From an uncultured Rubrobacteraceae bacterium (GTDB taxonomy: Bacteria; Actinomycetota; Rubrobacteria; Rubrobacterales; Rubrobacteraceae): a stretch of DNA of 19,313 bases. Positions 4,209 to 19,313 of this stretch are shown here, piece after piece; positions within the stretch are counted from its first letter, which is position 1, and every line of letters starts with the position of its first letter. The position numbers and the translations under genes were made by a program. The stretch covers positions 1 to 19,313 of the forward strand of contig CADCUW010000102.1 in assembly GCA_902805985.1 (NCBI GenBank). The letters are read 5' to 3'. The notes below the pieces were generated by a model, which worked only from the letters and a program-made list of their open reading frames with translations, ran no database searches and was not told the DNA's origin.

Positions 4209-4260
4209 CAGGTTCTAAGTTTTGAGGCTTAGAACCTCAATGCCTTAAGCCTCAAAGCCT
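4209..4260. repeat. Nested palindromes made of GGNTYNA-like heptads
   Basis: A 10-bp perfect hairpin (4210-4219 with 4228-4237) overlaps a second 11-bp perfect pairing (4221-4231 with 4246-4256) and a 6-bp one (4222-4227 with 4235-4240), so the pairings exclude one another. The strand is a chain of 7-8-base units (GGTTCTA, GTTTTGA, GGCTTAG) followed by their complements. It is much more AT-rich than its surroundings. It lies beyond the reading frame of the P1 peptidase tail and upstream of the M20 gene on the minus strand. It could act as a terminator or attenuator for the upstream minus-strand operon. Confidence 0.5.
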
Positions 4261-5379: not shown

Positions 5380-5387
5380 CGGAGACC

Positions 5388-6158
5388 TCACCTGCTCAGG
5401 GAGGAGACGCGGTCCATCTCCTCGTTCGAGAGCTCGAAGTCGAAGACGTCGAGGTTGGAGCGGAGGTGCTCTTCGCCGGTTGCCTTGGGGATTGCCGAGA
5501 CCTTCTCCTGCTGGACGAGCCAGCGCAGGGCGACCTGGGCTGCGGTCTTGCCGTGGGCCTCGCCCACCTCCCGAAGCGTACCGTCGCCCTCGACGCTGCC
5601 GCGGGAGAGCGGGCGGTAGGCGACGAGGAGGTAGTCCATCTCGCGGGCCTGCTCCAGTAAAGCGTCCTGGGACTTGTAGACGTGGTACTCGACCTGGTTG
5701 CAGAAGACGTCGACGTGCTCTGCGGCTTCTTGCGTCAGGGACGGCGAGAAGTTGCTGACGCCGACGTGACGGACGGCGCCCTCCTCTTGCAACTCGCGCA
5801 TCGCGCCGAGGGTCTCTCCGAGCGGCACGCCGTCGCCGGGCCAGTGCATGAGGAGCAGGTCCACGTACTCCGCGCGGAGCTTCTTCAGGCTCTCGCGGGT
5901 CTTCTGGATCACCCTGTCGTACGCGTAGTCGCTCGGCCAGACCTTGGTGGTCAGGAAGATCTCTGCACGATCTACGCCGGACTCCCCCATTCCCCGCCCG
6001 ACCTCGGCCTCGTTGCCGTACATCTGGGCGGTGTCGAGGTGCCTGTAGCCCATGGAGAGGGCGAGGTTTACGGCCCCCGCGCAGTCCTCCCCGGTGAGCC
6101 GGTACGTGCCCATCCCGAGGGACGGGACCTTCTTGCCTTTTATGTTCTGATGCTCCAC
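5388..6158 (-). CDS. Aldo/keto reductase
   Basis: A 256-aa NADPH-dependent (beta/alpha)8-barrel oxidoreductase. The full catalytic tetrad is visible: Asp42 and Tyr47 (HLDTAQMYGNE), Lys72 (TTKVW) and His105 (LLLMHWP). The family signatures GVSNFSP and AIPKATGEEHLRSNLDVFDFELS, the latter near the coenzyme phosphate site, are also present. The closest named relatives by pattern are 2,5-diketo-D-gluconate and methylglyoxal reductases, but the substrate cannot be assigned. The start is a GTG at 6158 with GAGGAGG about 6 bases upstream. Its TGA stop (5388-5390) lies within the window of possible starts of the P1 peptidase gene, forming a two-gene operon. Confidence 0.93.
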   Translation of the reverse strand: MEHQNIKGKKVPSLGMGTYRLTGEDCAGAVNLALSMGYRHLDTAQMYGNEAEVGRGMGESGVDRAEIFLTTKVWPSDYAYDRVIQKTRESLKKLRAEYVDLLLMHWPGDGVPLGETLGAMRELQEEGAVRHVGVSNFSPSLTQEAAEHVDVFCNQVEYHVYKSQDALLEQAREMDYLLVAYRPLSRGSVEGDGTLREVGEAHGKTAAQVALRWLVQQEKVSAIPKATGEEHLRSNLDVFDFELSNEEMDRVSSLSR

Positions 6159-6225
6159 GACGGCCTCCTCTGCAGCCTACCCGCCCAACCGTAGCACGCG
6201 TGGGCCGCGGCGGTCGTCTTGCGGG

Positions 6226-6699
6226 CTAGCGCTCCGGCGGGGCGAAGTCGTCTTCGGGACGGCCTTCGAGGGCGGCGACGGTCGGGAGGAACCAGTCGGG
6301 GCGGGGCCTGACGGCGTTCTCGACCGGGTCGAAGAAGACGTGGGCGGCGAAACCCTCGCAGGCGGTCTCGCCCTCCTCGAAGCTCTCGCCGTTTCGGAGC
6401 TCGAAGTCCATGGCATAGGAGCGGTCGCCGATCCAGGGCACCGTCGCAGCACCATGGAGGGTGTTGTCGAAGAAGATGGGGGCCTTGAAGCGGAGGGTCG
6501 TCTCGGCGATCACGTACCGGGCGCCGGGGACGTCGCCGGCCTCGAACTCCGTTATGCCCGCGAGGTCGGCTAAAGAGCGCCAGTAGGCGAAGCGGACCTG
6601 CTCGAAGTAGGCCAGGTAGACGGCGTTGTTGACGTGGCCGTAGGGGTCGAGGTCCGCGTACCGGATCTCCAACCGTACCGGCGCCGGGGGGTTTTTCAT
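6226..6699 (-). CDS. Acyl-CoA thioesterase of the 4-hydroxybenzoyl-CoA thioesterase hotdog family
   Basis: The 157-aa product carries the hotdog signature near its N-terminus: YADLDPYGHVNNAVYLAYFE (Asp16, Asp18, His22, Asn24, Asn25). An Ala-rich helix follows, then the strand region ETTLRFKAPIFFDN. Members hydrolyse acyl-CoA thioesters in the cytosol; chain type is not evident. The ATG at 6699 is chosen because it begins the conserved domain a dozen residues later. GAAAGG lies about 9 bases upstream, a weak site. The in-frame start at 6744 adds 15 unconserved residues. The C-terminus (about 120-157) is charged and not part of the core fold. The gene diverges from the TPR gene. Confidence 0.85.
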   Translation of the reverse strand: MKNPPAPVRLEIRYADLDPYGHVNNAVYLAYFEQVRFAYWRSLADLAGITEFEAGDVPGARYVIAETTLRFKAPIFFDNTLHGAATVPWIGDRSYAMDFELRNGESFEEGETACEGFAAHVFFDPVENAVRPRPDWFLPTVAALEGRPEDDFAPPER

Positions 6700-6733
6700 G
6701 ACGGTGGGCCTTTCGGGTTCGTGTGCGCGGGAA

Positions 6734-6739
6734 ATTGTA
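6734..6739 (-). promoter_or_regulatory. -10-like hexamer TACAAT for the thioesterase gene
   Basis: On the minus strand, TACAAT (5 of 6 to TATAAT) lies 34 bases before the ATG at 6699. No convincing -35 element is seen at the right distance. Confidence 0.35.
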
Positions 6740-6764
6740 CACACTCGTGCTTGGCCCTATCTGA

Positions 6765-6770
6765 TTTAAT
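6765..6770 (+). promoter_or_regulatory. -10-like hexamer TTTAAT, start-proximal, for the TPR gene
   Basis: TTTAAT ends 6 bases before the ATG at 6777, so transcription would begin at or next to the start codon. The gene has no ribosome-binding site. An alternative pair is TTGTAC at 6735-6740 with TATCTG at 6758-6763 (17-base spacer), which would leave a leader of only a few bases. Confidence 0.4.
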
Positions 6771-6776
6771 GCAACC

Positions 6777-8126
6777 ATGGAGTATGAGGAGTATCTCGAG
6801 CAGGGCGAGACCCTGGCGAGCGAGGGTCTGATCGAGGAGGCGCTCTCCCGTTTCGAGCAGGCCCTGGCAGCCGCCCCGGAGAACCCGGAGGCCATAGAGG
6901 CGGTCGGCAGGGCGCTCTTGAACCTGGGCCGCCTGGAGGAGGCCGAGGCGAGCTTTCTGGACGCTCTTGAGATCGACCCTGAGTGGGTCGCCCCGCGGAT
7001 GGGTCTCGCGCTGGTGGCTTTGGGACGGGACGAGCCGTTCAAGATCGTTCACCACCTCGAGCGGGCCATCGAGGCCGACCCGGGCTACCCCGAACCCTAC
7101 GTCGAGCTCGGTCGCTACTACGGCTACATGAACGAGCCGGCGCTGGCCAAGGCCACCTTCGAGCGCTGGACCGCCCGCCACCCGGAGGACGCCGACATGC
7201 TCATAAACGCCGGTCTCACCCTCTTTGACGCCTCGGATTTTGCGGAGGCGTACGGCTTCTTCGAGAAGGCGGTCGAGGCGGCGACGGAGGAGGAGCAGCG
7301 CAGCGGGGCGCTCACGTTCCGGGCCAACGCCCTGGACATGCTCGGCCGCTACGACGAGGCGGTCACAGCCTACGAGGAGGTCATCGCCGAGACCCCCGAG
7401 TGGTGGGAGGCCCACGCCAACCTCGGCATCTGCCACGCCCGCAACGGCCACGTGGAGAGGGCCGAGGCCGCCTTCCGGCGGGGCCTCGCGGATTGCCCCG
7501 GCTCGCCGGAGATAAGGGACGAGCTCGCCGCGCACCTGCTCTCCCAGGGAGGGGACCTCCAGGAAGCGTTGAAACTCTCGGAGGAGGCGGTGGCGCTCGG
7601 GCGGGACGAGATCCGGCACCTCATAACTTTGGGCGAGGTGAAGCTCGCCCTCGGCGACGACGAGGGGACCGCGGAGGCCTACCGGGCCGTGCTGGCCCTC
7701 GACCCTGAGAACCCGGACGCCCACCTGGAGCTCGGCATCCTGCACGAGCGCCGCGGCGAGATGACGGAGGCCGAGGAGCACTTCGTGGAGTCCCTGAAGG
7801 CGGACCCGGGCAACCCGCGCGCCCTCTACTCCTACGCGAGCCTGTACTACACGGCCGACGACCTGGAGACGGCGGAGGAGATCCTGGAGCGCGCCGTCGC
7901 TGCCGACGCCGAGTACTCCCCCGCCCTCTCCGCGCTTGCGAGCATCAGGGCCCGCCGCGGCGAGTACGGGGACGCGCTTGACTTTATAGAGCGGGCCGTC
8001 GAGGCCGGTGAGAGCGACGCGGACCACTTCAAGAGCGCCCTGGAGTTCGCCCCCCTCCACTCCGACCCCCGCTTCCGCACCCTCCTCTCCCGCATGTCCC
8101 ACGCCAGGGGCAACGGCGCGGACTAG
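6777..8126 (+). CDS. Tetratricopeptide repeat protein
   Basis: The 449-aa product is built almost entirely of 34-residue TPR units, roughly a dozen of them, with the usual Gly/Ala-Tyr/Phe-Ala-Pro pattern. Clear examples are GLIEEALSRFEQALAAAPEN near the N-terminus, LGRYDEAVTAYEEVIAETPE in the middle, and GEMTEAEEHFVESLKADPGN towards the end. There is no signal peptide or membrane segment, so it is a cytosolic scaffold for protein-protein contacts with an unknown partner. The last 25 residues (ALEFAPLHSDPRFRTLLSRM and following) are the kind of closing segment found after bacterial TPR arrays. No Shine-Dalgarno sequence precedes the ATG; a -10-like hexamer sits 6 bases upstream. The small membrane-protein gene follows 3 bases after the stop. 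Confidence 0.93.
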   Translation: MEYEEYLEQGETLASEGLIEEALSRFEQALAAAPENPEAIEAVGRALLNLGRLEEAEASFLDALEIDPEWVAPRMGLALVALGRDEPFKIVHHLERAIEADPGYPEPYVELGRYYGYMNEPALAKATFERWTARHPEDADMLINAGLTLFDASDFAEAYGFFEKAVEAATEEEQRSGALTFRANALDMLGRYDEAVTAYEEVIAETPEWWEAHANLGICHARNGHVERAEAAFRRGLADCPGSPEIRDELAAHLLSQGGDLQEALKLSEEAVALGRDEIRHLITLGEVKLALGDDEGTAEAYRAVLALDPENPDAHLELGILHERRGEMTEAEEHFVESLKADPGNPRALYSYASLYYTADDLETAEEILERAVAADAEYSPALSALASIRARRGEYGDALDFIERAVEAGESDADHFKSALEFAPLHSDPRFRTLLSRMSHARGNGAD

Positions 8127-8129
8127 GCG

Positions 8130-8342
8130 ATGCAGGCCACCGTCGCCTTCGGCATACTCCTCATCCTCGTAAGCATCGCCACCCTCTCCTTCGCCGCCTA
8201 CGCCCTGACCCGCGGCGGCAGGGGCCAGCGCGGAGGTATCGGCCCCATCTCAGAGCGGGGCATACACGTGATCGCGGGGATAAGGATGCTCTTGATAGGT
8301 ATAGCCAGCCTCGTCGTCGGCATGTATCTGTTGTTAGGCTAA
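8130..8342 (+). CDS. Small two-helix membrane protein
   Basis: A 70-aa protein with two hydrophobic helices (about residues 5-25 and 46-68), separated by a basic Gly/Arg loop (about 28-44). I do not recognise a family. The Arg/Gly-rich loop is likely cytoplasmic by the positive-inside rule. It starts 3 bases after the TPR stop and has no ribosome-binding site of its own, which suggests translation coupled to the TPR gene. It may serve as a membrane anchor or partner for the TPR protein, but that rests only on position. Confidence 0.7.
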   Translation: MQATVAFGILLILVSIATLSFAAYALTRGGRGQRGGIGPISERGIHVIAGIRMLLIGIASLVVGMYLLLG

Positions 8343-8360
8343 CCACACGCTACGCTCTCG

Positions 8361-8569
8361 GGCCTAGCTAAGGCCGAAAAGGGCGTTGAGAATAGGTCTT
8401 GGTCACTTAACCGGAGTCGGTGCCTCCCACAACGGTACGGTTTGAGAGCGAGCCTGAAGGTGAGATCCCGAGGCTTGGAGAGACACGTATCAGGGCCACG
8501 TAGTCCTGTATTCACCCAAAACTGTGGGAAGCTGCCTCTCGGGAGTCCGTCACCGAGAACAAGAGAAAC
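8361..8569 (+). ncRNA. Candidate structured RNA, possibly an orphan HEARO/omega-RNA-like element
   Basis: Between two convergent genes lies a stretch without coding potential that can fold extensively. The stems seen are 8361-8365/8371-8375 (5 bp), 8409-8413/8438-8442 (5 bp), 8449-8455/8471-8477 (7 bp with one G-U) and 8491-8496/8503-8508 (6 bp with one G-U). GGTGA in the loop at 8459-8463 can pair with TCACC at 8512-8516, which makes a pseudoknot. Segments such as CCTCCCACAACGG and ACACGTATCAGG look to me like the HEARO RNA that accompanies IscB HNH nucleases; this is memory of a pattern, not a search. HEARO elements are known to sit immediately upstream of ATGA or GTGA, and GTGA occurs at 8570-8573. 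No IscB reading frame is present. The strand and ends are provisional. Confidence 0.45.
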
Positions 8570-8598
8570 GTGAGAACAGCGGAGGTGGACTTCGCCGC

Positions 8599-9201
8599 CT
8601 AGAGAAGCTTTAAGCCGGCCGTGGCGTTTCTGAGGCCCTCCATAAAACTGTCGGTCTCCTGGCCGCGGCGGTGGGCGATGTCCTTGCTCGTCTCCAGGAT
8701 GAGGAGGTCGGGGATCTGGCGCCTGAGGCTCTCGGCGTGCCAGACGGCGGCCCTTATGTCCGCCACGTCGTCCTCGGTGCCGACCATGGCGAGCACGCGG
8801 GAGAGGCCGACGACACCGAGGTAGTCGAGGGCGACGGCGTCCTTGAGGAGGGTCGCCTCGGCGTCCGCGCCGGGCGGGGCGCCGGGAGGGTGGGCCACGA
8901 TGGCCTCGATCGCGGCCCTCGTGGCCTGCGGCGGGAAGTCGGCGTCGTTGAGGATGCGCTGCGCCACAGCGGCCGACCGTTTCGCGTGGTCCGCCGGTTC
9001 CCGCATCGCGTACGCCTTGTACAGCCCGACGTCGTGCAGGAGCGCCGCCACGCGCAGGATCTCCGCATCGTAGGAGATCCCCTCCGCGCGCGCGAGATCC
9101 TCCGCCAGCGCGTGTACCCGCACGCAGTGGCCGTAGCCCCAGACCGGGTGAGTCCCGACCCGCGCCACGAGCGCATCTACCTCTTCGACCACAGGCTTCA
9201 T
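8599..9201 (-). CDS. HD-domain metal-dependent hydrolase
   Basis: A 200-aa cytosolic HD-superfamily protein. The metal motif H...HD...D is visible as His25 (YGHCVRVH), His56-Asp57 (ALLHDVGLYK) and probably Asp121 (LLKDAVALDYLG), with His72 and His104 (IVAHPPG) as further conserved positions. The family hydrolyses phosphate esters, often of nucleotides; the substrate is unknown. The ATG at 9201 is chosen because it opens the conserved region. The open frame upstream is Arg-rich and overlaps the neighbouring gene, so it is an artefact. No Shine-Dalgarno sequence is present, but TAGACT lies 7 bases before the ATG. It follows the cobalamin-binding gene on the same strand with a 44-base gap. Confidence 0.87.
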   Translation of the reverse strand: MKPVVEEVDALVARVGTHPVWGYGHCVRVHALAEDLARAEGISYDAEILRVAALLHDVGLYKAYAMREPADHAKRSAAVAQRILNDADFPPQATRAAIEAIVAHPPGAPPGADAEATLLKDAVALDYLGVVGLSRVLAMVGTEDDVADIRAAVWHAESLRRQIPDLLILETSKDIAHRRGQETDSFMEGLRNATAGLKLL

Positions 9202-9208
9202 CGGAGAG

Positions 9209-9214
9209 AGTCTA
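9209..9214 (-). promoter_or_regulatory. -10-like hexamer TAGACT just before the HD gene
   Basis: On the minus strand TAGACT ends 7 bases before the ATG at 9201, a spacing that puts the transcription start at the start codon. No ribosome-binding site is visible, in keeping with a leaderless mRNA. Confidence 0.45.
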
Positions 9215-9245
9215 GCGAATAGGAGACCCCGCCGCGAACGCCGGG

Positions 9246-10166
9246 TTACTCGAAGACCGGCGAGAGGCGCGAAGCGACGTTTTCTCCCGGGCGCCCGGGA
9301 AACGCCTCCGGATGGAGTATGCGCGCCAGGATCTCGACGCCCTCGACCAGCCGCGGCGCCGGGCGCGAGAAGAACGAGTTGGCGTCCACCGCCCATACGC
9401 GATCTTCCTTTACGGCCGGAAGGTCCGGCCATCCGGGCAGGCTCGGGAGCGCCTTCGCCTCCCCGGCGGCCCGCTTCGCGTCGAAGCCGCACGGCATGAG
9501 GACGAGGACCTCGGGGGCGGCCTCGAAGACGGTCTCCCATTCGAGCCTGACGGACCGCTCGCCCGGGCCGGCGAAGAGTTCCCGTCCGCCGGCGAGCCGC
9601 ACCATCTCGGGGACCCAGTGACCGGCCGAGAACGGCGGGTCGAGCCACTCGATGCACCCGACGCTCGGGCACCGCAGGCCGGCGACGGTCTCCTCGATCT
9701 CATCGAGGCGGCACCGAAGCGCGGCGACGTCCCTACGGGCCCTTTCGCCGCGTCCGAGAGCCTCGCCTATCCTGACCGTGTCCTCAAGGACGTCTTCGAG
9801 GGAAGTGGGGTTGAGTACCAGCAGCTCCGGCCCGCTCCGGAGGCTTGATACGGCCTCTTCTACCAGGCTCGTGGAGACGGCGCAGACCTCGCAGAGACCC
9901 TGTGTGACGACGAGGTCGGGGGCGAGGTTTTCGAGAAGGTCAACGTCCAGGGCGTAGATGCTCTCGTCGTCGGTGACGAGGCGGTTCACCTCGGCGTCTA
10001 TCTCGGCGCCAGAGAGGGTGGGGTCTATCCTGGAGCTCGTCAGCCTCGGCAACCTCTCGACGCCGGGCGGGTGGTCGCACTCGTGGGTCACGCCGACGAG
10101 CCAATCCCCGGCCCCGGCGAAGTGGACCATCTCCGTAGCACTCGGGAGCAGGGAGACCACGCGCAA
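9246..10166 (-). CDS. Cytosolic BtuF-like cobalamin-binding protein
   Basis: The 306-aa product has the fold pattern of class III periplasmic-binding proteins of the BtuF/TroA type. The opening VVSLLPSATEMVHFAG (3-18), THECDHP, LAPDLVVTQGLCEVCAVS (82-99) and SVGCIEWLDPPFSAGHWVPEM are typical of the proteins annotated as cobalamin-binding. There is no signal peptide or lipobox, and no permease or ATPase gene is adjacent. It is thus a cytosolic member, perhaps a corrinoid carrier or sensor rather than a transport component. The start is a TTG at 10166, supported by GGGGAGGA 7 bases upstream and by the conserved N-terminus beginning at once. It is downstream of the M50-CBS gene (57-base gap) and upstream of the HD gene. 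Confidence 0.85.
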   Translation of the reverse strand: MRVVSLLPSATEMVHFAGAGDWLVGVTHECDHPPGVERLPRLTSSRIDPTLSGAEIDAEVNRLVTDDESIYALDVDLLENLAPDLVVTQGLCEVCAVSTSLVEEAVSSLRSGPELLVLNPTSLEDVLEDTVRIGEALGRGERARRDVAALRCRLDEIEETVAGLRCPSVGCIEWLDPPFSAGHWVPEMVRLAGGRELFAGPGERSVRLEWETVFEAAPEVLVLMPCGFDAKRAAGEAKALPSLPGWPDLPAVKEDRVWAVDANSFFSRPAPRLVEGVEILARILHPEAFPGRPGENVASRLSPVFE

Positions 10167-10198
10167 GCTACCGTCCTCCCCGGGAGCCCGCGTCCGAT

Positions 10199-10214
10199 GC
10201 CTCGAACCCGAGGC
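10199..10214. terminator. Small hairpin between the M50-CBS and cobalamin-binding genes
   Basis: A 6-bp perfect stem (10199-10204 with 10209-10214) has a 4-base loop and lies 9 bases after the M50-CBS stop on the minus strand. It has no T-tract; weak terminator or processing site. Confidence 0.3.
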
Positions 10215-10223
10215 CCGAAACCC

Positions 10224-11336
10224 TCACTGGCCGAGTTTGCGCCGGTCGCGCAGGAGGGCGGCCTGGCCGATATCGTCGGTGGTCAGCATGCCGACGAGGT
10301 CGCCGTCCTTTACGACGGGGAGGGCGCGGAGGCCGCTCTCCTGGAGGATGCGGTTGCCGTCGCTGAAGAGGTCGGCGTCCGGAGAGACCGTGGGGAACTC
10401 CGTGCGCATCAGGTCGCGGACGCTCGAGTACTTGTCCGGGGAGTGGGCGGCGGCCATGATCTCACCGCGCGTCAGGATGCCTACCAGCCGGCCTTCCTCG
10501 TCCACGACGGGGAAGTCCTCCTGGTAGCCGTGGAGGACGGCGTCAAAGACCTGACCGAAGTTGTGGTAGGGCGTCACGGTCTCCGTGCGGCGCTTGGTGC
10601 CCATCACGTCAGCGACCGTGAGGCCGCGCATCATCTCCTTCTGGCGGACAAACCCGGACTCGCCGCTGGCCCCGAAGAAGATGAACACGGCGACGAGGGC
10701 GAGCGTAAAGGTGTTGAGGATGAAGGCCAGGATAAAGAACCCGACGGCGAAGACCTGGCCCACGGTCGAGGCTATATCCGTGGACCTGACGGCGCCGAGG
10801 CGCGTGGCGAGCAGGCCGCGCAGGATACGCCCGCCGTCCATCGGGAAGGCCGGTATCAGGTTGAAGATGGCGAGGGCCAGGTTCATGATCCCGAGGTAGG
10901 CCAGTATCTGGCCCACGGAGGCGGAGCCTTCGAGCACGTTCACCGGACGGAGCAGGTCAGCCCCGAGCGCGAACGCGCCGGCGAAGAAGAAGGGGGCCAG
11001 CGCCACGTTCACCACGGGACCCGCCACGGCGATCTTGACCTCGTCCCACGGGTTCTCGGGCAGCGACTTGAGCCGCGCCAGCCCGCCTATGGGGAGCAGC
11101 GTTATGTCCGGCACCTCGATGCCGAACCTCTGGGCGACGAGCGAGTGCCCGAACTCGTGGAGCAGCACGCAGACGAACAGCGCCACGATGATGACCGAGG
11201 CGACGACGGCCGCCCTGACGCTCCCCCCGTTGCTGAACCCCAAATAGGAGAAGAAGGCCAGCAGCAGGAAGAAGGTCCAGTGGATCTTCACGTCTATGCC
11301 GAAGATTCGGCCTATCTTGAACGAACCGCCCATCAC
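10224..11336 (-). CDS. Site-2 protease (M50) with two CBS domains
   Basis: A 370-aa polytopic membrane metalloprotease. The zinc motif HEFGH is at 60-64 and the third ligand is in FPMDGGR (Asp167). Hydrophobic segments lie at about 20-35, 43-60, 100-127, 143-163 and 185-225. Two cytosolic CBS domains follow: about 235-290, with VTPYHNFGQVFDAVLHGYQ and LVGILTRGE, and about 300-360, with VSPDADLFSDGNRILQE and LVGMLTTDD. This is the archaeal/actinobacterial S2P-CBS type, in which adenine nucleotides bound by CBS are thought to control intramembrane cleavage. The substrate is unknown and no anti-sigma gene is nearby. Adjacent GTG (11336) and ATG (11333) starts are both possible; neither has a ribosome-binding site. 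Confidence 0.93.
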   Translation of the reverse strand: MMGGSFKIGRIFGIDVKIHWTFFLLLAFFSYLGFSNGGSVRAAVVASVIIVALFVCVLLHEFGHSLVAQRFGIEVPDITLLPIGGLARLKSLPENPWDEVKIAVAGPVVNVALAPFFFAGAFALGADLLRPVNVLEGSASVGQILAYLGIMNLALAIFNLIPAFPMDGGRILRGLLATRLGAVRSTDIASTVGQVFAVGFFILAFILNTFTLALVAVFIFFGASGESGFVRQKEMMRGLTVADVMGTKRRTETVTPYHNFGQVFDAVLHGYQEDFPVVDEEGRLVGILTRGEIMAAAHSPDKYSSVRDLMRTEFPTVSPDADLFSDGNRILQESGLRALPVVKDGDLVGMLTTDDIGQAALLRDRRKLGQ

Positions 11337-11341
11337 ACGGA

Positions 11342-11347
11342 AGTCTA
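11342..11347 (-). promoter_or_regulatory. -10-like hexamer TAGACT just before the M50-CBS gene
   Basis: On the minus strand TAGACT ends 5 bases before the GTG at 11336 and 8 before the ATG at 11333. The gene lacks a ribosome-binding site, so a leaderless start is plausible. Confidence 0.4.
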
Positions 11348-11393
11348 CCGCAAGGCCGCGAGGATCTTGTGATACCGCTCATGTCCTCCCTGC

Positions 11394-11399
11394 TAGAAT
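11394..11399 (+). promoter_or_regulatory. Extended -10 hexamer TGC-TAGAAT for the DNA polymerase gene
   Basis: TAGAAT (5 of 6 to TATAAT), preceded by TGC as in an extended -10, ends exactly 6 bases before the ATG at 11406. Transcription would start on the A of the start codon. No Shine-Dalgarno sequence exists, so a leaderless mRNA is expected. Confidence 0.55.
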
Positions 11400-11405
11400 C
11401 GCCTG

Positions 11406-14135
11406 ATGGAGGAAAAGACGACGTCCTACACCCTCGTCACCGACCCCGAAGAGCTACCCGCAGTCGCCTCGGCGCTCGAAGGGGCCGGGGCCGTCGGCAC
11501 CGACACCGAGACCACGAGCCTCTCCCCCAGGGACGGCAGGGCCCGCCTCCTACAGCTCGCGGTTCCGGACCAGACCTTCGTCATAGACCTCTTCGAGGTT
11601 GCGGATATATCCCCCTTGAAGGAGGTGCTCGAGAACGGCCCGGTAAAGGTTTTTCACAATTGCGTTCCCCTGGATACCGATGTTCTGACCCCACGGGGAT
11701 GGCGTCCCATCGGCAGCATCTCGCGGGGCGACACCGTCATGGGATATTCCGAAGGTCGCCAGAGGTGGACGACGGTAACGGAGCACATAGACGGCGGCCA
11801 CCAGGAGGTGATCGAGACCTTCAACACGCGGAGGAGGTGGCGGTCGACGGCTTCCCACAGGTGGGTATGCCACGTTCGACAAGGCAAACGGGGCGACAGG
11901 ATCGAAGAAGTCTATAGGACGACCGACGACCTGCGTGCCCGGCCGAAGAACTTTGATCGGGTGGTCCACTCGGCGTCGTTCATTAACCCTTTCCCTTCGG
12001 ACGTGTCGCCCGACGAAGCGGCATTGATGGCCTGGCTTTGGGGAGATGGAACGGTTCACGCGAAGGGAAGGTACAGCCCCAAGCGGCCGGGCTTCGGCGG
12101 AGGAAACCGCATCCCGACGTGCAGCATCACGCAGTCGGAGAACAACCGGGACTACTGTGCCCGAATAGAGACCTTGCTCCGTTCTTTGGGAATCGAACCC
12201 GAGTACGGGAGACTTCCCGAGTCCCCGCATATCAGAAGGTACAAGGTTCCGGGCAGGTTGGTCACTGGCGTATACGAGAAAGCCGGCATGGATCTTGACG
12301 ACCCCAACTACGAGGACTTCGTGCTCGGACTCTCCGCAGAGGCCCTAGGCGCATGGTTCGAGGCGTTTTGGTTCGCCGAGGGGTCAAAGTCGCGGCCGTT
12401 TCCGCAGGTGTTCTGTCAGACGCGCAAGGCGAACCCGGGCAAATTCGAGGCGCTACTCCTGGCCGGTCATCTTCTCGGCCACACCCCGAAACCGGGTGGC
12501 GAAGACTTCCTCAACTTCGGCAGGCCCACGACGACGATGAGGAAAGTCGAACACCGGAGCCTGGGCACGGAGAGGGTGGCGTGCCTGACCACGGAGACCT
12601 CCAATTTCGTGATGCGGCAGGGCGACTTCGTAACCATCACCGGAAATTCCAAGTTCGACTACCAGTTCATAAAGGAGTTGCACGGCATCTCCGCGGCCCC
12701 CGTCTTCGACACGATGCTCGCGGCCCAGATCCTCGACGGCGGCCGGCAGGGCGCGGCGTACGGGTTGGACGCGGTGGCGGAGCGTTACCTGGAGGAGTCG
12801 CCGGACAAGTCCGAGCAGCGCAGCGACTGGTCCGGGAAGCTTACGGGGCGGCAACTGGAGTACGCCGCGCGCGACGCGGCCGTGTTGCTGCCGCTGCGCG
12901 AGAAGCTTCTGGAGGCGCTCGAAGCCGAGGAGCTCGTCCGGGTCTCCAGGATAGAGTTCGCGGCCGTCTCCTCCATAGCGGAGATGGAGCTCGCCGGGGT
13001 CAAGCTCGACGTGGCGCGGTGGAGGGAGCTCGAGAAGGTCGTCAGGGAGCGGCGAGACGAGGCCGCGCTCGCGCTTGAGGCGCATTTTCCCGAGCCCGAA
13101 GGCGTGTTGCCCCTCGAAGGACTCGGGCCGCGGTTGAACTTGAACAGCCCGCAGCAGATCACGGACGCCTTCCGCTCCATCGGCGTCGAGCTCGCCGACA
13201 CGAAGGTCTGGACGCTGCTCAAGGTCGACCACCCGGCGGCCAGAGACCTGCTCCGCTACCGCGAGCTCCAGAAGAAGCTCGGCACGTACCTCGAGACCTA
13301 CCCGAAGTTCATCCACCCGAAGACCGGGCGCATCCACGCAAGCTTTCTGCAGTGCCGGGTTCCGACCGGGCGTCTCGCGTGCGCGAACCCGAACATCCAG
13401 CAGATACCGCACGAGGAAGAGTTCCGCCGCTGCTTTGTGGCCGAGGACGGCTACACCCTCGTCATAGCGGACTACTCGCAGATAGAGCTCAGGATCCTCG
13501 CCGAGGTCTCGGGCGACCCGGCCTTCGTCGATGCCTTCCAGAAGGGCGAGGACCTTCACAGCCTGACGGCGGCGACGATGTACGGGGTGCCGATGGAAGA
13601 GGTCACCAGGGACCAGCGATCTGACGCCAAGCGCATAAACTTCGGCCTGATGTATGGCCGCGGCGCCAGGAGCCTCTCGGCCCAGCTCGGCACCGACGAG
13701 GCTCGAGGACGCCAGCTCATAGACGAGTACTTCGCCAACTACCCGAAGGTCCAGCGCTTCCTGCAGAGGACCGCCAACCGGGCCACCAGGGACAGGACGC
13801 TCAGGACCCTCGCGGGTCGCATCCGCAAGTTCGGCAACGACCCCGTCGAGGACGACCGGGGCGCCATGAGGCGCGAAGCGATGAACTACCCGATCCAGGG
13901 CTCCAGCGCCGACATCGCCAAGCTCGCCCTCGCCTACATGCGCCAGGAACTTCTGGGCCTCGACGCCCGCCTCGTCAACTCCATCCACGACGAGTTCGTC
14001 GTCGAATGCAAAGAGGACCTGACGGACGTGGTCTCCGAGAAGATGAGCGCGGCGATGACGAGGGCCGGGGAGCGCATCCTGGAGAAGGTACCCGTCGAGG
14101 TCGAGGTCGTCGTCTCGCGGGAGTGGACGAAGTAG
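11406..14135 (+). CDS. Bifunctional 3'-5' exonuclease/family-A DNA polymerase, intein-containing
   Basis: The 909-aa precursor would splice to 580 aa. The exonuclease part has Exo I Asp33-x-Glu35 (GTDTETTSL), Exo II His84-Asn85 joined to SKFDYQF (415-421) after splicing, and Exo III Tyr486-x3-Asp490 (YAARD). The family-A polymerase part has motif A (DYSQIELR from 689), motif B (Lys742 with NFGLMYG 745-751) and motif C (HDE 861-863). The N-terminal 5'-nuclease domain of classical PolA is missing, as in the actinobacterial proteins annotated as bifunctional 3'-5' exonuclease/DNA polymerase. It is therefore probably a second, repair-type polymerase acting on chromosomal DNA. The start is the ATG at 11406, with a -10-like element 6 bases upstream and no ribosome-binding site. 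The mature protein depends on splicing, because Exo II is split. Confidence 0.93.
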   Translation: MEEKTTSYTLVTDPEELPAVASALEGAGAVGTDTETTSLSPRDGRARLLQLAVPDQTFVIDLFEVADISPLKEVLENGPVKVFHNCVPLDTDVLTPRGWRPIGSISRGDTVMGYSEGRQRWTTVTEHIDGGHQEVIETFNTRRRWRSTASHRWVCHVRQGKRGDRIEEVYRTTDDLRARPKNFDRVVHSASFINPFPSDVSPDEAALMAWLWGDGTVHAKGRYSPKRPGFGGGNRIPTCSITQSENNRDYCARIETLLRSLGIEPEYGRLPESPHIRRYKVPGRLVTGVYEKAGMDLDDPNYEDFVLGLSAEALGAWFEAFWFAEGSKSRPFPQVFCQTRKANPGKFEALLLAGHLLGHTPKPGGEDFLNFGRPTTTMRKVEHRSLGTERVACLTTETSNFVMRQGDFVTITGNSKFDYQFIKELHGISAAPVFDTMLAAQILDGGRQGAAYGLDAVAERYLEESPDKSEQRSDWSGKLTGRQLEYAARDAAVLLPLREKLLEALEAEELVRVSRIEFAAVSSIAEMELAGVKLDVARWRELEKVVRERRDEAALALEAHFPEPEGVLPLEGLGPRLNLNSPQQITDAFRSIGVELADTKVWTLLKVDHPAARDLLRYRELQKKLGTYLETYPKFIHPKTGRIHASFLQCRVPTGRLACANPNIQQIPHEEEFRRCFVAEDGYTLVIADYSQIELRILAEVSGDPAFVDAFQKGEDLHSLTAATMYGVPMEEVTRDQRSDAKRINFGLMYGRGARSLSAQLGTDEARGRQLIDEYFANYPKVQRFLQRTANRATRDRTLRTLAGRIRKFGNDPVEDDRGAMRREAMNYPIQGSSADIAKLALAYMRQELLGLDARLVNSIHDEFVVECKEDLTDVVSEKMSAAMTRAGERILEKVPVEVEVVVSREWTK
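11661..12647 (+). other. Intein (329 aa) in the Exo II motif of the DNA polymerase
   Basis: Residues 86-414 of the precursor. The first residue is Cys86 (CVPLDTDVLTPRGWRPIGSI, block A). Block B is T148-A-S-H151 (STASHRWV), and the C-terminal blocks are RVACLTTETSNFV and VTITGN. The final residue is Asn414 and the +1 extein residue is Ser415. The penultimate residue is Gly instead of the usual His. Two LAGLIDADG-like motifs occur: AWLWGDGTV (acidic Asp214) and FWFAEGSK (Glu325). Both catalytic acids are kept, but the second motif is degenerate. Removing it joins HN to SKFD and restores a perfect Exo II motif. A 60-base sample (11881-11940) has 36 G+C against 43 in host sequence (13021-13080), in keeping with separate origin. 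Confidence 0.93.
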
Positions 14136-14143
14136 GTTTCGTA

Positions 14144-14171
14144 GGCTCTAGGATCCAGGCTTCAGGTTCTT
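14144..14171. repeat. Four tandem degenerate heptads GGNTYYN
   Basis: GGCTCTA, GGATCCA, GGCTTCA and GGTTCTT follow one another without gaps, directly after the polymerase stop. The unit type matches the chain at 4211-4260, which suggests a family of intergenic heptad repeats in this genome. Confidence 0.45.
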
Positions 14172-14172
14172 T

Positions 14173-14649
14173 GTGGGTGGCGGTGTTGAGGTGCGACGGG
14201 CGGGGCCGGGGGATGCCGGGGCGTTGGGGCGGGTTGCCTTTGCCGCGAAGGGACACTGGGGGTACCCGGAGCGCTGGATGGAGCTGTGGCGGGAGGATCT
14301 CGAGGTCTCGCCGGGGTTTGTTCGGGAGAACGAGGTGTACGTCGCGGTCTCCGGGGGGAGGGCGGTCGGTTTCTACGCCCTCGTCGGTGGGGGGCGGGAG
14401 TTGAACCTGGAGCACCTGTGGGTGCTGCCGGCCTGGATCGGAACGGGCCTCGGACGGACCTTGTTCGAGCACGCGATGCGCCGCGCAGCAGAGCTTGGGG
14501 CGAGGATGGTCCGGATAGAGTCCGACCCCAACGCGGAAGGTTTCTACCGACGGATGGGCGCGAGGCGTACGGGAGAGAACGTCTACGAGATGGAAGGCCG
14601 GGAGCGCGTGCTGCCGGTCATGGTCGTGGAGCTGCCGAAAGCCCGGTAG
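14173..14649 (+). CDS. GNAT-family N-acetyltransferase
   Basis: The 158-aa product has the GNAT fold order: an N-terminal strand VEVRRAGPGD, two helices, the strand VYVAVSGGRAVGFYALVG, then motif A (LEHLWVLPAWIGTGLGRTLFEHAM, about 79-102) with the acetyl-CoA pyrophosphate loop G90-T-G-L-G-R. After that come a helix, the strand ARMVRIESDPNAEGFYRRMG and the closing strand VMVVELPK. It transfers an acetyl group to an amine on an unknown small molecule or protein. The start is uncertain: the GTG at 14173 is the longest option, and an in-frame GTG at 14191 lies nearer the conserved core. No clear ribosome-binding site. It sits 37 bases after the polymerase stop and converges on the MFS gene. Confidence 0.88.
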   Translation: MGGGVEVRRAGPGDAGALGRVAFAAKGHWGYPERWMELWREDLEVSPGFVRENEVYVAVSGGRAVGFYALVGGGRELNLEHLWVLPAWIGTGLGRTLFEHAMRRAAELGARMVRIESDPNAEGFYRRMGARRTGENVYEMEGRERVLPVMVVELPKAR

Positions 14650-14739
14650 GGCGCACGTGCATGATCCGCCACGAACCGCGCCGTCTCTGTATGTTCGTCT
14701 TTCTCGGACAGGGAAGCTGACGGCTGAGAGCCGACCGTC

Positions 14740-15915
14740 CTACCCTTCCGACGCGACCTCCGGTCGCTTCGCCCTGCTGGTGAGGAGCAGCAGCGCGAGG
14801 GCCGCCAAGGCGCAGAGGGAGCCGGTCCATCCGAGGGTCTGCAGCGAGCCATTGGCGAGGGCGAGGGCGCCGAGGCCGGCGCCGATGCCCTGCCCGAGGT
14901 AGATGGCAGAGGCGTTGAGGGAGAGGGCGACGTTGCGGGTGGAGGGCGCCAACTGGGAGACGCGGTACTGCTGCAGCGGGTTCAGGGCGAAGCCGGCTAC
15001 GCCCCACAGCGCCAGCGCCGCCACAGTACCGGGGAGGGCGAGAGCGGTTTCGGAGGAGGCGACCAGCAGCGAGAAGCCGAGCAGGGAGAGGGAGAGCAGG
15101 GCCAGGATGGCCGCCATGAGCCGGGCGTAGCCTATGTGGTCCGCGCCGTAGCCCCCGAGCCAGTTGCCGAGGAGGGCCGCAACCCCGAACAGGAAGAGCA
15201 GGCCGCTCACGCCGGCGCCGCCGAAGCCGGTGATCTCGGCGAGCAGCGGGCTCACGTAGGTAAACACGACGAACCCGCCCATGAGCCCGAGCGTCGTGAG
15301 GCCGAGGGCGGCCAGAACCGCCGGTTGCCCCAGGGCGTCCACGCGCTCCTTGAGGCCCACCACCGGCGGCGCCTCGACGTCCGGTAGCGCCCGGACGCCG
15401 AGCATGGCCACCACGCCGAGGGCGGCGACCATAACGAAGGTCATCCGCCAGCCCGCGTACGTGCCGATGATCGAGCCAAGGGGTATCCCGACCACGAACG
15501 AGACCGTGAGCCCGCCCGTGATGGTCGAGATCGAGCGCCCCCGCTCCTCCGGCGGGGAGAGGCCCGCCGCCACGGCCAGCGCCGTCGGCGTGAACACCGC
15601 GGCCCCGCACGCGGCGAGCACCCGGCAGGCGAGCAGGAGGCCGAAGGTGGGCGCGAACACCGCCGCCAGGTTAGCCGCCGCGAACACCGCCATCGCGGCG
15701 AAGAGGATCTTGCGCGGCGCCACGCTCCCCGTCAGGGTGACGAGGATGGGCGAGACGACCGCGTAGGTGACCGCGAAGACGGTCACCAGGTTGCCCGCCG
15801 TCCCGACGGAGACGGAGAGGTCGCCCGCGACCCCTTCGAGCAGCCCCGCAAACACGAAGCTCCCCGTCCCTATGGCGAAGGTCCCGAGCGCCAGGACGAG
15901 CAGCCGAAGCCTCAC
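14740..15915 (-). CDS. MFS transporter, DHA1 drug-exporter type
   Basis: A 391-aa integral membrane protein with about 12 hydrophobic segments, the normal length for the family. Visible family marks are the loop 2-3 motif around GSVAPRKILFAAM, CRVLAACGAAVFTPTALAVA in helix 4, the charged loop PPEERGRSIS, and the helix 5 antiporter-like motif GIPLGSIIGTYAGWRMTF. It is related by pattern to proton-driven efflux permeases of the CmlA/YdhP kind; the substrate is unknown. The GTG at 15915 is chosen because it opens the first helix. A G-rich stretch (GGAGGGGG) lies about 10 or more bases upstream. The longer frame reaching into RtcB is an artefact. It follows RtcB by 58 bases on the same strand. 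Confidence 0.9.
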   Translation of the reverse strand: MRLRLLVLALGTFAIGTGSFVFAGLLEGVAGDLSVSVGTAGNLVTVFAVTYAVVSPILVTLTGSVAPRKILFAAMAVFAAANLAAVFAPTFGLLLACRVLAACGAAVFTPTALAVAAGLSPPEERGRSISTITGGLTVSFVVGIPLGSIIGTYAGWRMTFVMVAALGVVAMLGVRALPDVEAPPVVGLKERVDALGQPAVLAALGLTTLGLMGGFVVFTYVSPLLAEITGFGGAGVSGLLFLFGVAALLGNWLGGYGADHIGYARLMAAILALLSLSLLGFSLLVASSETALALPGTVAALALWGVAGFALNPLQQYRVSQLAPSTRNVALSLNASAIYLGQGIGAGLGALALANGSLQTLGWTGSLCALAALALLLLTSRAKRPEVASEG

Positions 15916-15973
15916 GACGCGCCATCCCCCTCCGCCGCCCCGGCAAGCGACGGACCCCGGGGTGGGACGCGGC

Positions 15974-18529
15974 TCATTTGCGCTTCTTTTTCCAGGGTCC
16001 GCCGCCGGCGTCCATGCGCACGATCTTCGGGGTGAACCTCCCGATGAGGTCCACGAGATCCCCCTGCAGCGAGACGACGGCCTCGACGTCCTTGTAGGCC
16101 GCGGGGGCCTCGTCAAGGGAGCCGCCGATGAGGGTGATACCGCGCTCAGAGAGGTGCTCCCTCCAGCGCTCCTCCGAGAGGGTCTTGAAGGCCTGGGTGC
16201 GGCTCATGCGCCTGCCGGCCCCGTGGGCGGCGGAGTTTATGGAGCGGGCGTTGCCCCTGCCGCGCACGACGTACCCCGGGTCACCCATGGAGCCGGGGAT
16301 CACACCCATGACCCCCCGCCCGGCCGGCGTCGCGCCCTTGCGATGGACGATGGCCTCTTTTCCATCCCACTCTTCCTTCCAGCAATTGTGCGCAACGACG
16401 CCGGAGCAAACAAAGGAGTGGCTCTCATGTCGGACAGAGAGATCGTACACGGGTTCGGCGACCTTGGAAGCTACAACCTTGCGTACCCTTTGGACGAAAA
16501 GGCCGGGAGGTGGGGCGAACCCACCAAGCTTCTGATAGCCTAGCCCGCGGCCTTGGGATGCTTCGCGGTTGATTCGGGAGACTTTACTCCTATGCCAAAG
16601 CGGGAGACAGGCTATGGAGCTAGCCGAGATCACGCACCGGTAGACAACGCAAGGCCCAAAGTTGGTGACCTTTCGCTCCTCACTGATCGAAGTAACCCGC
16701 AACCCACACGAAATGGCGAGCTCGCGCAGACCTCGGATCAACGCAGGGTTAGTAGAAGCCATAGTACCCCTGCCCCGGTTACGGACGTTTTCGGCAACGC
16801 AACCATCGGCATCCATGTACCCGGCTAGCAACGCCATCTTCTCTTCTTGAGGGAGCCCGTAGACGTAGGGGGGCAGAGATCTATCGCGTCCGTAACCGAA
16901 AAACCCTAGTTCAACCAACGCGGTGTGGACAGCTTTAGAGGAGCACGTCAGGCCGTAGGTGCCGCGTACGTTGTTCGACCATCGCGCGATAGGTAGGACC
17001 CGCTGGCAGAGCAAGAGGTAATCCGAAGTGTGTTCCTCGTCCTTCCTGCCGATAGCAAGCCCGACACCGTACCCGCTGACCTCAGGTTTAGTGTTTCGTA
17101 CCCAGCCATCGCCGAGGAATGCTCCGAATAAACGGGCGGCGTCGGTGCCGATGGACTGGCCGTTGGCGAAGTAGCCGTCGGCGCAGACGAGCATGTCCCC
17201 TTCCGCAAGCTTATCGGTGCATCTCCACTCGAGAAATCCTGAAGTTTTCCTCCTGGTCCTGGACCCGCCGGTTGGTCTCATCGACAGGACGAGCAGGCGG
17301 TGATCTCCAGTGCATCTGATGCGGCGACTGGCCGTGTGGACCGTGAGCGTTTCACGGTAACCCGACCGCCAGGCATCCGACACCTCCGTTTCCACGAGAC
17401 CGAAATTCGGGTCGCAAGCATAGACCATATCGCCAGCCTCGATCTCGTCCATTCGCCTGGGACCTGCTGGCGTGGGCACGAACTGGTCACCGGCGATGCA
17501 GAAGTTGTGGTGGTTCTCCACCTTCGTCAGGACCTCCTCGCCGAGGGCGTAGGAGACCTTTTCGTGGATGACGGCGTGGTTGGCGGAGGCGTAGCGGCCG
17601 GCGAGTTGCATGGAGAGCCAGTACTCCTCCCCCTCCTCGCTCGTCAGGTCTAGCCACGCGAGGTCGGCGACGCTTTTGTCCAGCTCGGGGTGCTTCTCTT
17701 TGGCGATCTTGGAGTAGCGGTTGGCGACCTTGAACCCAACCCCCCGGCTCCCGGAGTGCGAGAGCAACGCGAGGTAGCGCCGCCCCGGCACGAACGCCTC
17801 TCCGGTCTCTCCCTCGCCGAGCGTCTCGAAGAGTCCCCACTCCACGAAGTGGTTTCCCGAGCCCGACGTACCGAGCTGAGCCCGTCCGGTATCCTTCAGG
17901 CCCCGCAGGAAAGACGTGGCCTCCCACGCGGGGTCGTCGAGGACCTCGTGCTCCGGCCGGCGGCCCTCCTTGTACTTCGAGCCGGCCCCGAAGTTGGTGT
18001 TGCGGAGCAGCACCTCGGTGAGATCCTCCCTCCGGTCCTCGATGAGATCCGGCGACACATCATATATGGATAAACGCATACGACAGGCGATATCCACGCC
18101 GACGGCCCAGGGTATAACGGCGCCTTCGGTGGCGAGGACGCCGCCGACGGGGAGGCCGTAGCCGAGGTGGGCGTCGGGCATCAGGGCGCCGCCGACGGAG
18201 ACGGGGAGGCGCATGGCGTCCTCCATCTGGGCGGTCGTGCCGGGTTCGATCAGGTCCGGCCCCCAGACGCCGTAGGCCCGCGGCCTGTCGCGCAGCTCGT
18301 GCTCGGATGCCCTGGACGCGGCGTCCCGGAGCTTCAGCAGCTCGCGGGCGAGGGGTTCGAGGGCCGGGTCCGTTGGCGCGTCGGGGGCGGCGCGGGTCTT
18401 CTCCAGCTCGCGGAGGATGGAGTCTTCGTCCATGCCGGCCGCCCGGAGGCTCTTTGCGGCGGCGAGGGCGAGGCCGATGGTCGGGCCCTCGGGCCAGCCG
18501 GTTTCGATCAGGTCTCTGCCGTTGATCAT
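15974..18529 (-). CDS. rtcB: RNA-splicing ligase RtcB, intein-containing
   Basis: The 851-aa precursor would splice to 479 aa, the usual RtcB length. RtcB joins 2',3'-cyclic phosphate or 3'-phosphate ends to 5'-OH RNA ends using GTP and Mn2+, in RNA repair and tRNA splicing. Visible catalytic residues are Asp146 and Cys149 (GVDIACRM), Asn226-His227 (GSGNHFVEWG), His258 (SHSGSRG), His340-His341 (ENHHNF), and the GMP-accepting His769 in SAAHGAGRRMSRTQA. The ATG at 18529 has GAGGAGGAGA directly upstream, a strong site. It lies 16 bases after the RhtA-like exporter gene and is probably co-transcribed with it. No RtcA, archease or RtcR gene is seen. Function requires excision of the intein, since the split is beside the metal site. 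Confidence 0.95.
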   Translation of the reverse strand: MINGRDLIETGWPEGPTIGLALAAAKSLRAAGMDEDSILRELEKTRAAPDAPTDPALEPLARELLKLRDAASRASEHELRDRPRAYGVWGPDLIEPGTTAQMEDAMRLPVSVGGALMPDAHLGYGLPVGGVLATEGAVIPWAVGVDIACRMRLSIYDVSPDLIEDRREDLTEVLLRNTNFGAGSKYKEGRRPEHEVLDDPAWEATSFLRGLKDTGRAQLGTSGSGNHFVEWGLFETLGEGETGEAFVPGRRYLALLSHSGSRGVGFKVANRYSKIAKEKHPELDKSVADLAWLDLTSEEGEEYWLSMQLAGRYASANHAVIHEKVSYALGEEVLTKVENHHNFCIAGDQFVPTPAGPRRMDEIEAGDMVYACDPNFGLVETEVSDAWRSGYRETLTVHTASRRIRCTGDHRLLVLSMRPTGGSRTRRKTSGFLEWRCTDKLAEGDMLVCADGYFANGQSIGTDAARLFGAFLGDGWVRNTKPEVSGYGVGLAIGRKDEEHTSDYLLLCQRVLPIARWSNNVRGTYGLTCSSKAVHTALVELGFFGYGRDRSLPPYVYGLPQEEKMALLAGYMDADGCVAENVRNRGRGTMASTNPALIRGLRELAISCGLRVTSISEERKVTNFGPCVVYRCVISASSIACLPLWHRSKVSRINREASQGRGLGYQKLGGFAPPPGLFVQRVRKVVASKVAEPVYDLSVRHESHSFVCSGVVAHNCWKEEWDGKEAIVHRKGATPAGRGVMGVIPGSMGDPGYVVRGRGNARSINSAAHGAGRRMSRTQAFKTLSEERWREHLSERGITLIGGSLDEAPAAYKDVEAVVSLQGDLVDLIGRFTPKIVRMDAGGGPWKKKRK
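16385..17500 (-). other. Intein (372 aa) in RtcB, next to the metal-binding histidines
   Basis: Residues 344-715 of the precursor. Cys344 begins block A (CIAGDQFVPTPAGPRRMDEI). Block B is RCTGDHRLLV (T407, H410). The C-terminal blocks are VYDLSVRHESHSFV and SGVVAHN, with the standard His714-Asn715 end and a +1 Cys716. Both LAGLIDADG motifs are well preserved (LFGAFLGDGWV 467-477 and LLAGYMDADG 567-576), so the homing endonuclease may be active. Excision joins HHNF to CWKEEW, the normal RtcB sequence. A 60-base sample (16621-16680) has 34 G+C against 43 in the flanking host gene (17761-17820), as expected for a horizontally moved element. RtcB is a known intein host in archaea and bacteria. 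Confidence 0.95.
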
Positions 18530-18545
18530 TCTCCTCCTCTTCCCT

Positions 18546-19313
18546 TCAGGTTTTCCCGTACGCGCCGAAGAGCGAAGCCCCGGCGGCGGCCGTGGTGACG
18601 AGCCCTATGGCGGCGACGGCGCGCCAGTCCAGAAGCTCGCCCAGGACCAAAAAGCCAACGAGGGCGGCTACGGCGGGCTCCAGGCTCATAAGGACGCCGA
18701 AGACGCGGGTCGGGAGGGATCTCAAGGCCGAGAGCTCCAGGGAGTAGGGAATGGCGGAGGAGAGGATCGCGACGCCGAGGCCCATGAGAAGGAGCTTCGG
18801 GTCGAGCAGGGCGTAGCCGCCGCCGGCGATACCGACGGGCAGGAGGACGAGCGTGCCGACGCACAGCGAGATCACGAGCCCCGTCCCGCCCGGGAACGCG
18901 CCCCCGACCCTGGCGCTGAGGAGTATGTATGACGCCCAGAACACTCCGGCGAGCAGCGCGAACATCACGCCGACGGGGTCGAGGTTCGTAGCCCCCAGGA
19001 CGTTCAGGGGCGCCAGCAGGAGCACGCCCGTGGCGGCGAGCACGACCCAGAGCCCGTCCAGCAGGCGCCTGGACCCCGCGACGGCGACGCCCAAGGGTCC
19101 TATGAACTCCAGCGTCACGGCCACGCCGAGGGGTATCCGGTCGATGGCGAGGTAGAGGGAGAGGTTCATCGCGGCCAGTGCGAGCCCGAAGACGACGGCG
19201 AGCCCGTACTCGGCCCTGGCGTAGCCCTTTAGCTTCGGGCGCCACAGCAGGAGCAGGATGAGGGCGGAGAGCGAGATCCTGAACAGCACCGTCCCGCCGG
19301 GCCCGACGGAGTC
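18546..19313 (-). CDS. RhtA-like EamA/DMT family amino-acid exporter, cut by the window edge
   Basis: The open frame continues through the right edge, so the N-terminus is missing; at least 255 residues are present. The sequence is strongly hydrophobic with about 9 of the usual 10 helices. It matches the RhtA (threonine/homoserine exporter) branch of EamA proteins: LFRISLSALILLLLWRPKLK, AMNLSLYLAIDRIPLGVAVT and LEFIGPLGVAVAGSRRLLD in the first half, and SSAIPYSLELSALRSLPTR and VLMSLEPAVAALVGFLVLGE in the second. It is an inner-membrane exporter, probably of amino acids; specificity is inferred from family. The gene is 16 bases upstream of RtcB on the same strand. The apparent ATG-like start at 19289 is internal, as the family sequence continues upstream of it. 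Confidence 0.88.
   Translation of the reverse strand, partial: DSVGPGGTVLFRISLSALILLLLWRPKLKGYARAEYGLAVVFGLALAAMNLSLYLAIDRIPLGVAVTLEFIGPLGVAVAGSRRLLDGLWVVLAATGVLLLAPLNVLGATNLDPVGVMFALLAGVFWASYILLSARVGGAFPGGTGLVISLCVGTLVLLPVGIAGGGYALLDPKLLLMGLGVAILSSAIPYSLELSALRSLPTRVFGVLMSLEPAVAALVGFLVLGELLDWRAVAAIGLVTTAAAGASLFGAYGKT

Follow-up and report, generated by a model that had tools for sequence, protein, structure and literature searches.

Inteins of archaeal family-B DNA polymerases sit in catalytic motifs of the enzyme. Here we describe an intein within the Exo II motif of a family-A DNA polymerase gene from an uncultured Rubrobacteraceae bacterium (genome G000; assembly GCA_902805985.1, contig CADCUW010000102.1, positions 1 to 19,313 of the forward strand, i.e., the whole analysed stretch of 19,313 nucleotides, called the window below). 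The family-B cases concern a different polymerase family. With regard to splicing chemistry, class 3 inteins are defined by the WCT triad of Trp B:12, Cys F:4 and Thr G:5 (PMC3196547, PMC7664689, PMC5050341), while the TxxH motif is a class 1 feature whose Thr is generally absent from class 3 inteins (PMC6195587). The origin of class 3 is disputed: on one account, class 3 goes back to a phage intein whose first nucleophile was lost (PMC3196547); on the other, a direct change of class 1 into class 3 is not expected (PMC7664689). The mycobacteriophage RDF intein, likened here by description only, is treated as class 1, belongs to a phage DNA-metabolism protein and shares the penultimate Gly of the window intein (PMC5050341); its family was not reached by tblastn. 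Among the open-licence literature matches listed, none describes a family-A polymerase whose Exo II motif holds an intein. The nearest of these matches is cyanophage Mic1, whose terminase contains inteins and whose Pol-gamma gene is made of two open reading frames (ORFs) separated by an intron (PMC7156551).

The window intein splits Exo II into HN and SKFD. It is very probably a mobile, phage-linked LAGLIDADG homing intein that is specialised on Exo II of family-A polymerases and splices out by default. Two aspects are new here: class 1 features (Cys1, TxxH) are combined with the class 3 WCT triad (W68, C308, T327), a mix common to the relatives of this intein, and the Exo II inteins of Rubrobacter-type, cyanophage-like and phage Pol-gamma-like polymerases form one branch. 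We make no first-description claim for the mix within one intein; Tori and Perler (2011) reportedly expanded the class 3 definition such that WCT inteins with Cys1 or Ser1 are allowed. In the proposed mechanism, the 909-residue precursor would be translated, the intein would fold as a HINT domain and excise between Asn85 and Ser415, and the exteins would be joined to a 580-residue proofreading polymerase. At the DNA level, alleles lacking the intein would be cut by the endonuclease at the conserved HN/KFD codons and would then receive a copy of the intein through repair.

Borders and empty alleles can be read directly. Among 39 genomes of the family (G000 included), the Exo II site is filled in two (G000 and G373) and empty in 31, and six have no readable site (G008, G013, G014, G025, G029, G357). 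The congener G003 has an empty site, with a C-extein 97% and an N-extein 92% identical to those of the window; the neighbouring M50 gene is adjacent there as well and 94.6% identical, i.e., the window contig belongs to the genus of G003. The window itself is chromosome-like. Of 396 genomes drawn from the phylum, G000 and G373 alone gave a full-length intein match. In the protein database, a complete intein with the same borders is present in 16 of 23 matches (P0005-P0007 being near-identical), and two more have the C border in common. The original prediction, made from the window sequence, had placed an intein with exactly these borders inside Exo II (HN^SKFD), and the precise borders, the empty alleles and the splicing residues bear it out. 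Its product sizes are exact as well (909 = 580 spliced + 329 intein), and the polymerase part is intact in the precursor.

The residue following the intein (+1) is Ser or Cys in all 17 filled alleles (window and P0001-P0016), while in the 31 empty alleles Ala (17) and Ser (9) prevail, followed by Val and Leu (2 each) and Gly (1). This bias is what the need of splicing for a +1 nucleophile predicts (Fisher p 1.2e-6, indicative only since the alleles are related; the empty-allele count of 9/31 takes in L028, which was read by eye, and is 8/30 without it).

Mobility is reflected in a direct conflict between the extein tree and the intein tree of the 17 proteins. P0011 and P0015 have exteins identical at 489/506 positions (96.6%; N-extein 85/85) and inteins identical at only 202/318 (63.5%); here, one intein has evidently replaced another at exactly the same place. 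Forcing both inteins together is rejected (approximately unbiased test, p-AU 4e-29), for a group that was named after the trees had been seen. When the window is compared with P0011 (G373), identity is higher in the intein (80.9%) than in the extein (74.1%). In the same comparison, the ratio of nonsynonymous to synonymous rates (dN/dS, NG86) is 0.12 for the intein (dS 1.05) and 0.115 for its endonuclease part (dS 1.27). GC content at third codon positions (GC3) is 0.77 in the intein vs. 0.82 and 0.91 in the exteins. For the 18 Exo II homologues, a source name is shown for nine (one merely a stray sign), and an intein is mentioned in none.

The splicing blocks A, B, F and G are all filled (C1, T63xxH66, C308, N329 and Ser+1), and intein fold comparison predicts a HINT fold. 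As in class 1, there is an N-terminal nucleophile together with block B TxxH (Cys1, T63-A-S-H66); the penultimate His, which is usual but not obligatory in class 1, is replaced by Gly328. As in class 3, the positions B:12, F:4 and G:5 are taken by W68, C308 and T327, but strict class 3 has no N-terminal nucleophile and Cys1 is present. The conserved residues are a direct reading of the alignment: W68, C308, T327, G328 and N329 do not vary among the 17 aligned homologues, and Cys1 is present wherever a sequence extends that far. In P0004, the Thr of TxxH is replaced by Ser.

This also holds for a wider set. Across 28 aligned inteins, Cys1, Cys F:4, Thr G:5 and Gly-Asn are found in 28/28 and an exact H-x-W in 27/28, the exception being Awesomesauce (H-x-x-W). 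In this set, a Cys and TGN marked where the inteins were cut, with a pattern applied to the 17 Exo II rows and manual cutting of the remaining 11, such that the Cys1 and TGN counts follow in part from the cutting itself. The borders of the Exo II rows are given independently by the empty alleles, and W, the F:4 Cys and the LAGLIDADG acids played no part in the cutting. Adding 18 rows yields a tally in which 45/46 inteins have the whole residue set and 46/46 end in Gly-Asn. Since 17 of these 18 were preselected for H-x-W and a T/S-x-N end (penultimate residue open) and P0034 was picked by hand, the clean H-x-W figure is 27/28. Looking at the ends only, P0028, P0037, P0039, the second intein of P0045, P0046, P0047 and P0048 all have Cys F:4 and TGN. 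Outside the tally, the first intein of P0024 has no W, and the first intein of P0042 (Exo II-like site, N end cut) was not included. An H-x-W occurs somewhere in the scanned stretch of one class 1 reference (P0045b).

Cys1 is the probable starting point of splicing, given that it is retained along with the activating TxxH; its constancy among inteins of about 25% identity suggests that it is in use. Together with the other WCT residues, Cys308 forms a second, class 3-like constellation. The original prediction had suggested that the Gly-Asn end may make the splicing rate unusual, which is not supported. The RDF intein splices completely with its native penultimate Gly and needs >5 h for about half when this is changed to His (G316H), although other inteins respond differently to such a change (PMC5050341). 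Given also that Gly-Asn is found in 46/46 relatives, it is no sign of slow splicing.

The class 3 inteins of Msm/Mch DnaB1 and PhoH have the WCT triad and the HINT fold in common with the window intein (PMC7664689, PMC6195587, PMC5050341). While the window intein has Cys1, TxxH and Gly-Asn, our 12 class 3 references all terminate in His-Asn and have Ala (11) or Ser (1) as their first residue. A splicing-block tree of 43 inteins (unrooted, 154 columns) separates class 3 (n=12, i.e., 11 PhoH and 1 DnaB; support 99/93), class 1 (n=8; 96/89) and the lineage of the window intein (n=23; 73/60, weakened by the long Awesomesauce branch), such that the class 3 references branch without the window intein. 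Since the tree has no outgroup, the lineage cannot be placed nearer to class 1 or class 3. On inspection, several loci from the phylum draw that had passed for relatives were class 3 inteins of PhoH and DnaB; these were used as references. In PhoH of other phylum members (L035-L039, L041-L046), class 3 inteins sit at MRGR^TLN with Ala1 (Ser1 once, in L046), WCT and His-Asn.

With regard to the disputed origin of class 3, a lineage with both residue sets makes the question testable by two point mutants. It is conceivable, if rather unlikely, that this lineage is a living representative of the phage progenitor, that class 3 arose by loss of Cys1, and that its members may splice via either nucleophile or that a Cys1-Cys308 disulfide restrains the polymerase under oxidative stress. 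The progenitor idea rests on the occurrence of Cys1/TxxH together with the whole WCT triad in a lineage found largely in phage-type proteins.

An active LAGLIDADG endonuclease is suggested by two motifs with acids and a matching predicted fold. The second motif, held to be degenerate in the original prediction, is a normal variant: it reads FWFAEGS in the window, and its acid is kept in 17/17 aligned sequences (E in 16, D in 1). The nearest endonuclease folds of the model include I-DmoI, with an E117A mutant among the structures listed; E117 is a catalytic residue of I-DmoI. A search of the PDB with the insert as single sequence found nothing significant. The best PDB sequence match of the intein profile is 6bs8 (Msm DnaB1) with an E-value of 0.0017.

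The lineage extends to phage-type polymerases. P0043 is filled at Exo II (FVN^SKFD) with an intein 55% identical to that of the window, and its extein matches phrog_31382 at 4e-67 and the 3'-5' exonuclease of Microcystis phage LMM01 at 33.8%. P0044 is filled at Exo II as well (HN^CGYD, intein 37% identical); it has a Pol-gamma exonuclease domain (PF18136), and phrog_22619 is nearest. Both fall into one branch (99/97) with the Rubrobacter-type Exo II inteins, of which 4 of 17 were entered in the tree; within it, P0043 sits in a poorly supported fork with the Rubrobacter-type inteins. One branch at Exo II of bacterial, cyanophage-like and phage Pol-gamma-like enzymes indicates that the lineage follows the motif, i.e., it is a clean case of a mobile element that tracks a catalytic motif and not a species. 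The expectation that the site is uncommon thus stands only in part: filled sites are rare by genome (2/33 readable) and lacking from the literature matches listed, yet they occur in three kinds of family-A polymerase.

Other members of the lineage use other sites. The inteins of Pseudomonas phage KIL1 and Escherichia phage nieznany also lie in family-A polymerases and resemble the window intein in Cys1, H-x-W, Cys F:4, Thr G:5, Gly-Asn and LAGLIDADG. They differ in being only 25% and 23% identical and in sitting, by reading, in the O-helix (motif B) region instead of Exo II. From the flanks, O-helix sites were read for KIL1, nieznany, P0019, P0020, P0024-P0027, P0029 and P0032, Exo III sites for P0031, P0033 and P0042, and a QG motif site for P0020. 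PF00476 (family-A polymerase) is carried by 38 of the 48 database proteins found (precomputed column). These searches covered proteins of 0.55 to 1.75 times the polymerase query length and, in part, the best 7998 candidates, i.e., they are not a host census. According to Pfam accessions and our own reading, the lineage also has members in a sigma factor, in a DNA methylase of a phage, in a protein resembling metallophosphoesterases, in WXG100 proteins and in unassigned proteins; the inteins in WXG100 proteins (P0035, P0036 and P0039; PF06013/PF01464) have unusual, non-replicative hosts. Residues 1-246 of P0042 show a phage-type polymerase with an N-truncated intein that ends LTGN^CNFD (Exo II-like) and whose block F looks unlike the lineage, besides the second intein in Exo III. 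L040, at first seen as an exonuclease with an Exo II intein, proved to be a different host protein once its locus was read. Among isolated phages, 82 of 50,697 records match, all below 60% identity, and Exo II is filled in none of the three matching records read. No relatives were found in the viral contigs or plasmids searched, and named genomes yielded a single contig.

The host gene matches NF011539 (PRK14975 exonuclease/polymerase) with 733.6 bits (curated score 640), and Exo I/II/III as well as polymerase motifs are present; no match to a 5' nuclease is found in the 909-residue precursor. DxE and YxxxD lie at the expected distance from N-KFD in 29/29 script-matched empty relatives, a set that leaves out L028 (reads KFE, unmatched) and L032 (not put in). 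The canonical PolA of the congener G006 (two-contig genome) has 5' nuclease and polymerase domains, and this one scanned PolA (L060) shows no Pfam match to a 3'-5' exonuclease (PF01612). The intein-bearing paralogue may therefore be the only family-A enzyme with proofreading. By eye, 3'-5' exonuclease motifs are not recognisable in the canonical PolA of three congeners (L060, L061, L062), and the paralogue keeps them. The predicted structure of the precursor is too low in confidence for use (predicted local distance difference test, pLDDT, 53; predicted template modelling score, pTM, 0.32).

Some observations weigh against a mobile, splicing homing intein. The insert by itself has no significant match to a Pfam or NCBIfam intein model, and motif 1 of one homologue (P0017) reads GGG with the acid gone, i.e., P0017 may have lost the function of its first LAGLIDADG motif. 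P0043 and P0044 were not found in the viral contig collection such that their assignment to phages depends on similarity to PHROGs and phage records. In the comparison of the window with G373, dS is close to saturation, and YN00 failed for 4/5 parts. The source genome is fragmented (707 contigs, 88.6% complete, 5.9% contamination). Finally, splicing and cleavage themselves are inferred, and so are the initiating Cys and the direction in which the intein passed between phage and bacterium.

The original prediction had proposed that splicing could act as a switch from a non-proofreading to a proofreading enzyme. On a reading of this kind, the intein would be kept since it delays assembly of the exonuclease site, e.g., gated by redox via Cys1/Cys308. 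The insertion does separate Exo I from Exo II/III, and the G006 PolA result is in accordance with such a role. Two active-site cysteines would make redox control possible, as reported for the oxidant-sensitive class 3 intein DnaBi1 of M. smegmatis (PMC6195587). But the site is filled in only 2/33 readable family alleles with empty congeners, inteins are exchanged between near-identical exteins (P0011/P0015), and the precursor as a whole may well be compromised by an insertion within its N-terminal domain. No evidence for a switch was found; given its patchy distribution and the replacement of one intein by another, the insert looks like a mobile element and not like a selected switch, which we consider improbable. 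A decayed insert, whose 329 residues no longer splice and remain as a domain, would fit the degenerate-looking second motif and the Gly-Asn end; given the invariant splicing residues, the Ser/Cys +1 rule, purifying selection and empty alleles, it is more improbable still. That an assembly or binning artefact joined the pieces, as 707 contigs and 5.9% contamination might suggest, is hardly credible given the single open frame, the 16 complete homologues with the same borders and the M50 neighbour in G003. The same arrangement is also found on contig JAIVIG010000075.1 of a separate, named metagenome-assembled genome; this contig appears to be the contig of G373/P0011.

Positions of the features in the window.
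Feature	Position	Strand	Remark
Precursor gene	11406..14135	+	909 residues; PRK14975-type family-A DNA polymerase with 3'-5' exonuclease, intein-bearing
N-extein	11406..11660	+	85 residues; first half of Exo II = HN, 11655-11660
Exo I DTETT	11502-11516	+	in N-extein
Intein	11661..12647	+	329 residues, Cys1 to Asn329; precursor residues 86-414, between Asn85 and Ser415
Cys1	11661..11663	+	N-terminal nucleophile, class 1-type
Block B T63-A-S-H66-R-W68	11847..11864	+	TxxH, class 1 feature; Trp B:12, class 3 WCT feature
LAGLIDADG motif 1 LMAWLWGDG	12024..12050	+	acid D129
LAGLIDADG motif 2 FEAFWFAEG	12357..12383	+	acid E240
Cys308	12582..12584	+	block F:4, position of class 3-type internal nucleophile
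Thr327 (G:5), Gly328 (penultimate), Asn329	12639..12647	+	
C-extein	12648..14132	+	495 residues, starts with Ser+1
SKFD (rest of Exo II)	12648-12659	+	in C-extein
Exo III YAARD	12861-12875	+	in C-extein
DYSQIE	13470-13487	+	polymerase part, C-extein
HDE	13986-13994	+	polymerase part, C-extein
RtcB intein	16385..17500	-	372 residues, ordinary class 1 type; in RtcB ORF 15974-18529

Within the family, the paralogue polymerase has two further intein sites, namely GRLA^C and NYPIQG^. At GRLA^CTNPN, an HNH-type intein is found in L049 (G002), L050 (G026) and L052 (G007), and P0045 has an HNH-type-like intein at the corresponding place. At NYPIQG^SSAD, a LAGLIDADG intein is found in L049 (G002), L051 (G028) and P0002. 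That is, G002 has two inteins within one polymerase gene, and P0002 combines the NYPIQG^ intein with an Exo II intein in the same polymerase.

The second intein of the window, in RtcB, follows ENHHNF and has Cys1, a His-Asn end and a +1 Cys. Its GC3 is 0.67 vs. about 0.89 in its exteins, and it is the sole PF14890 match in the G000 genome.

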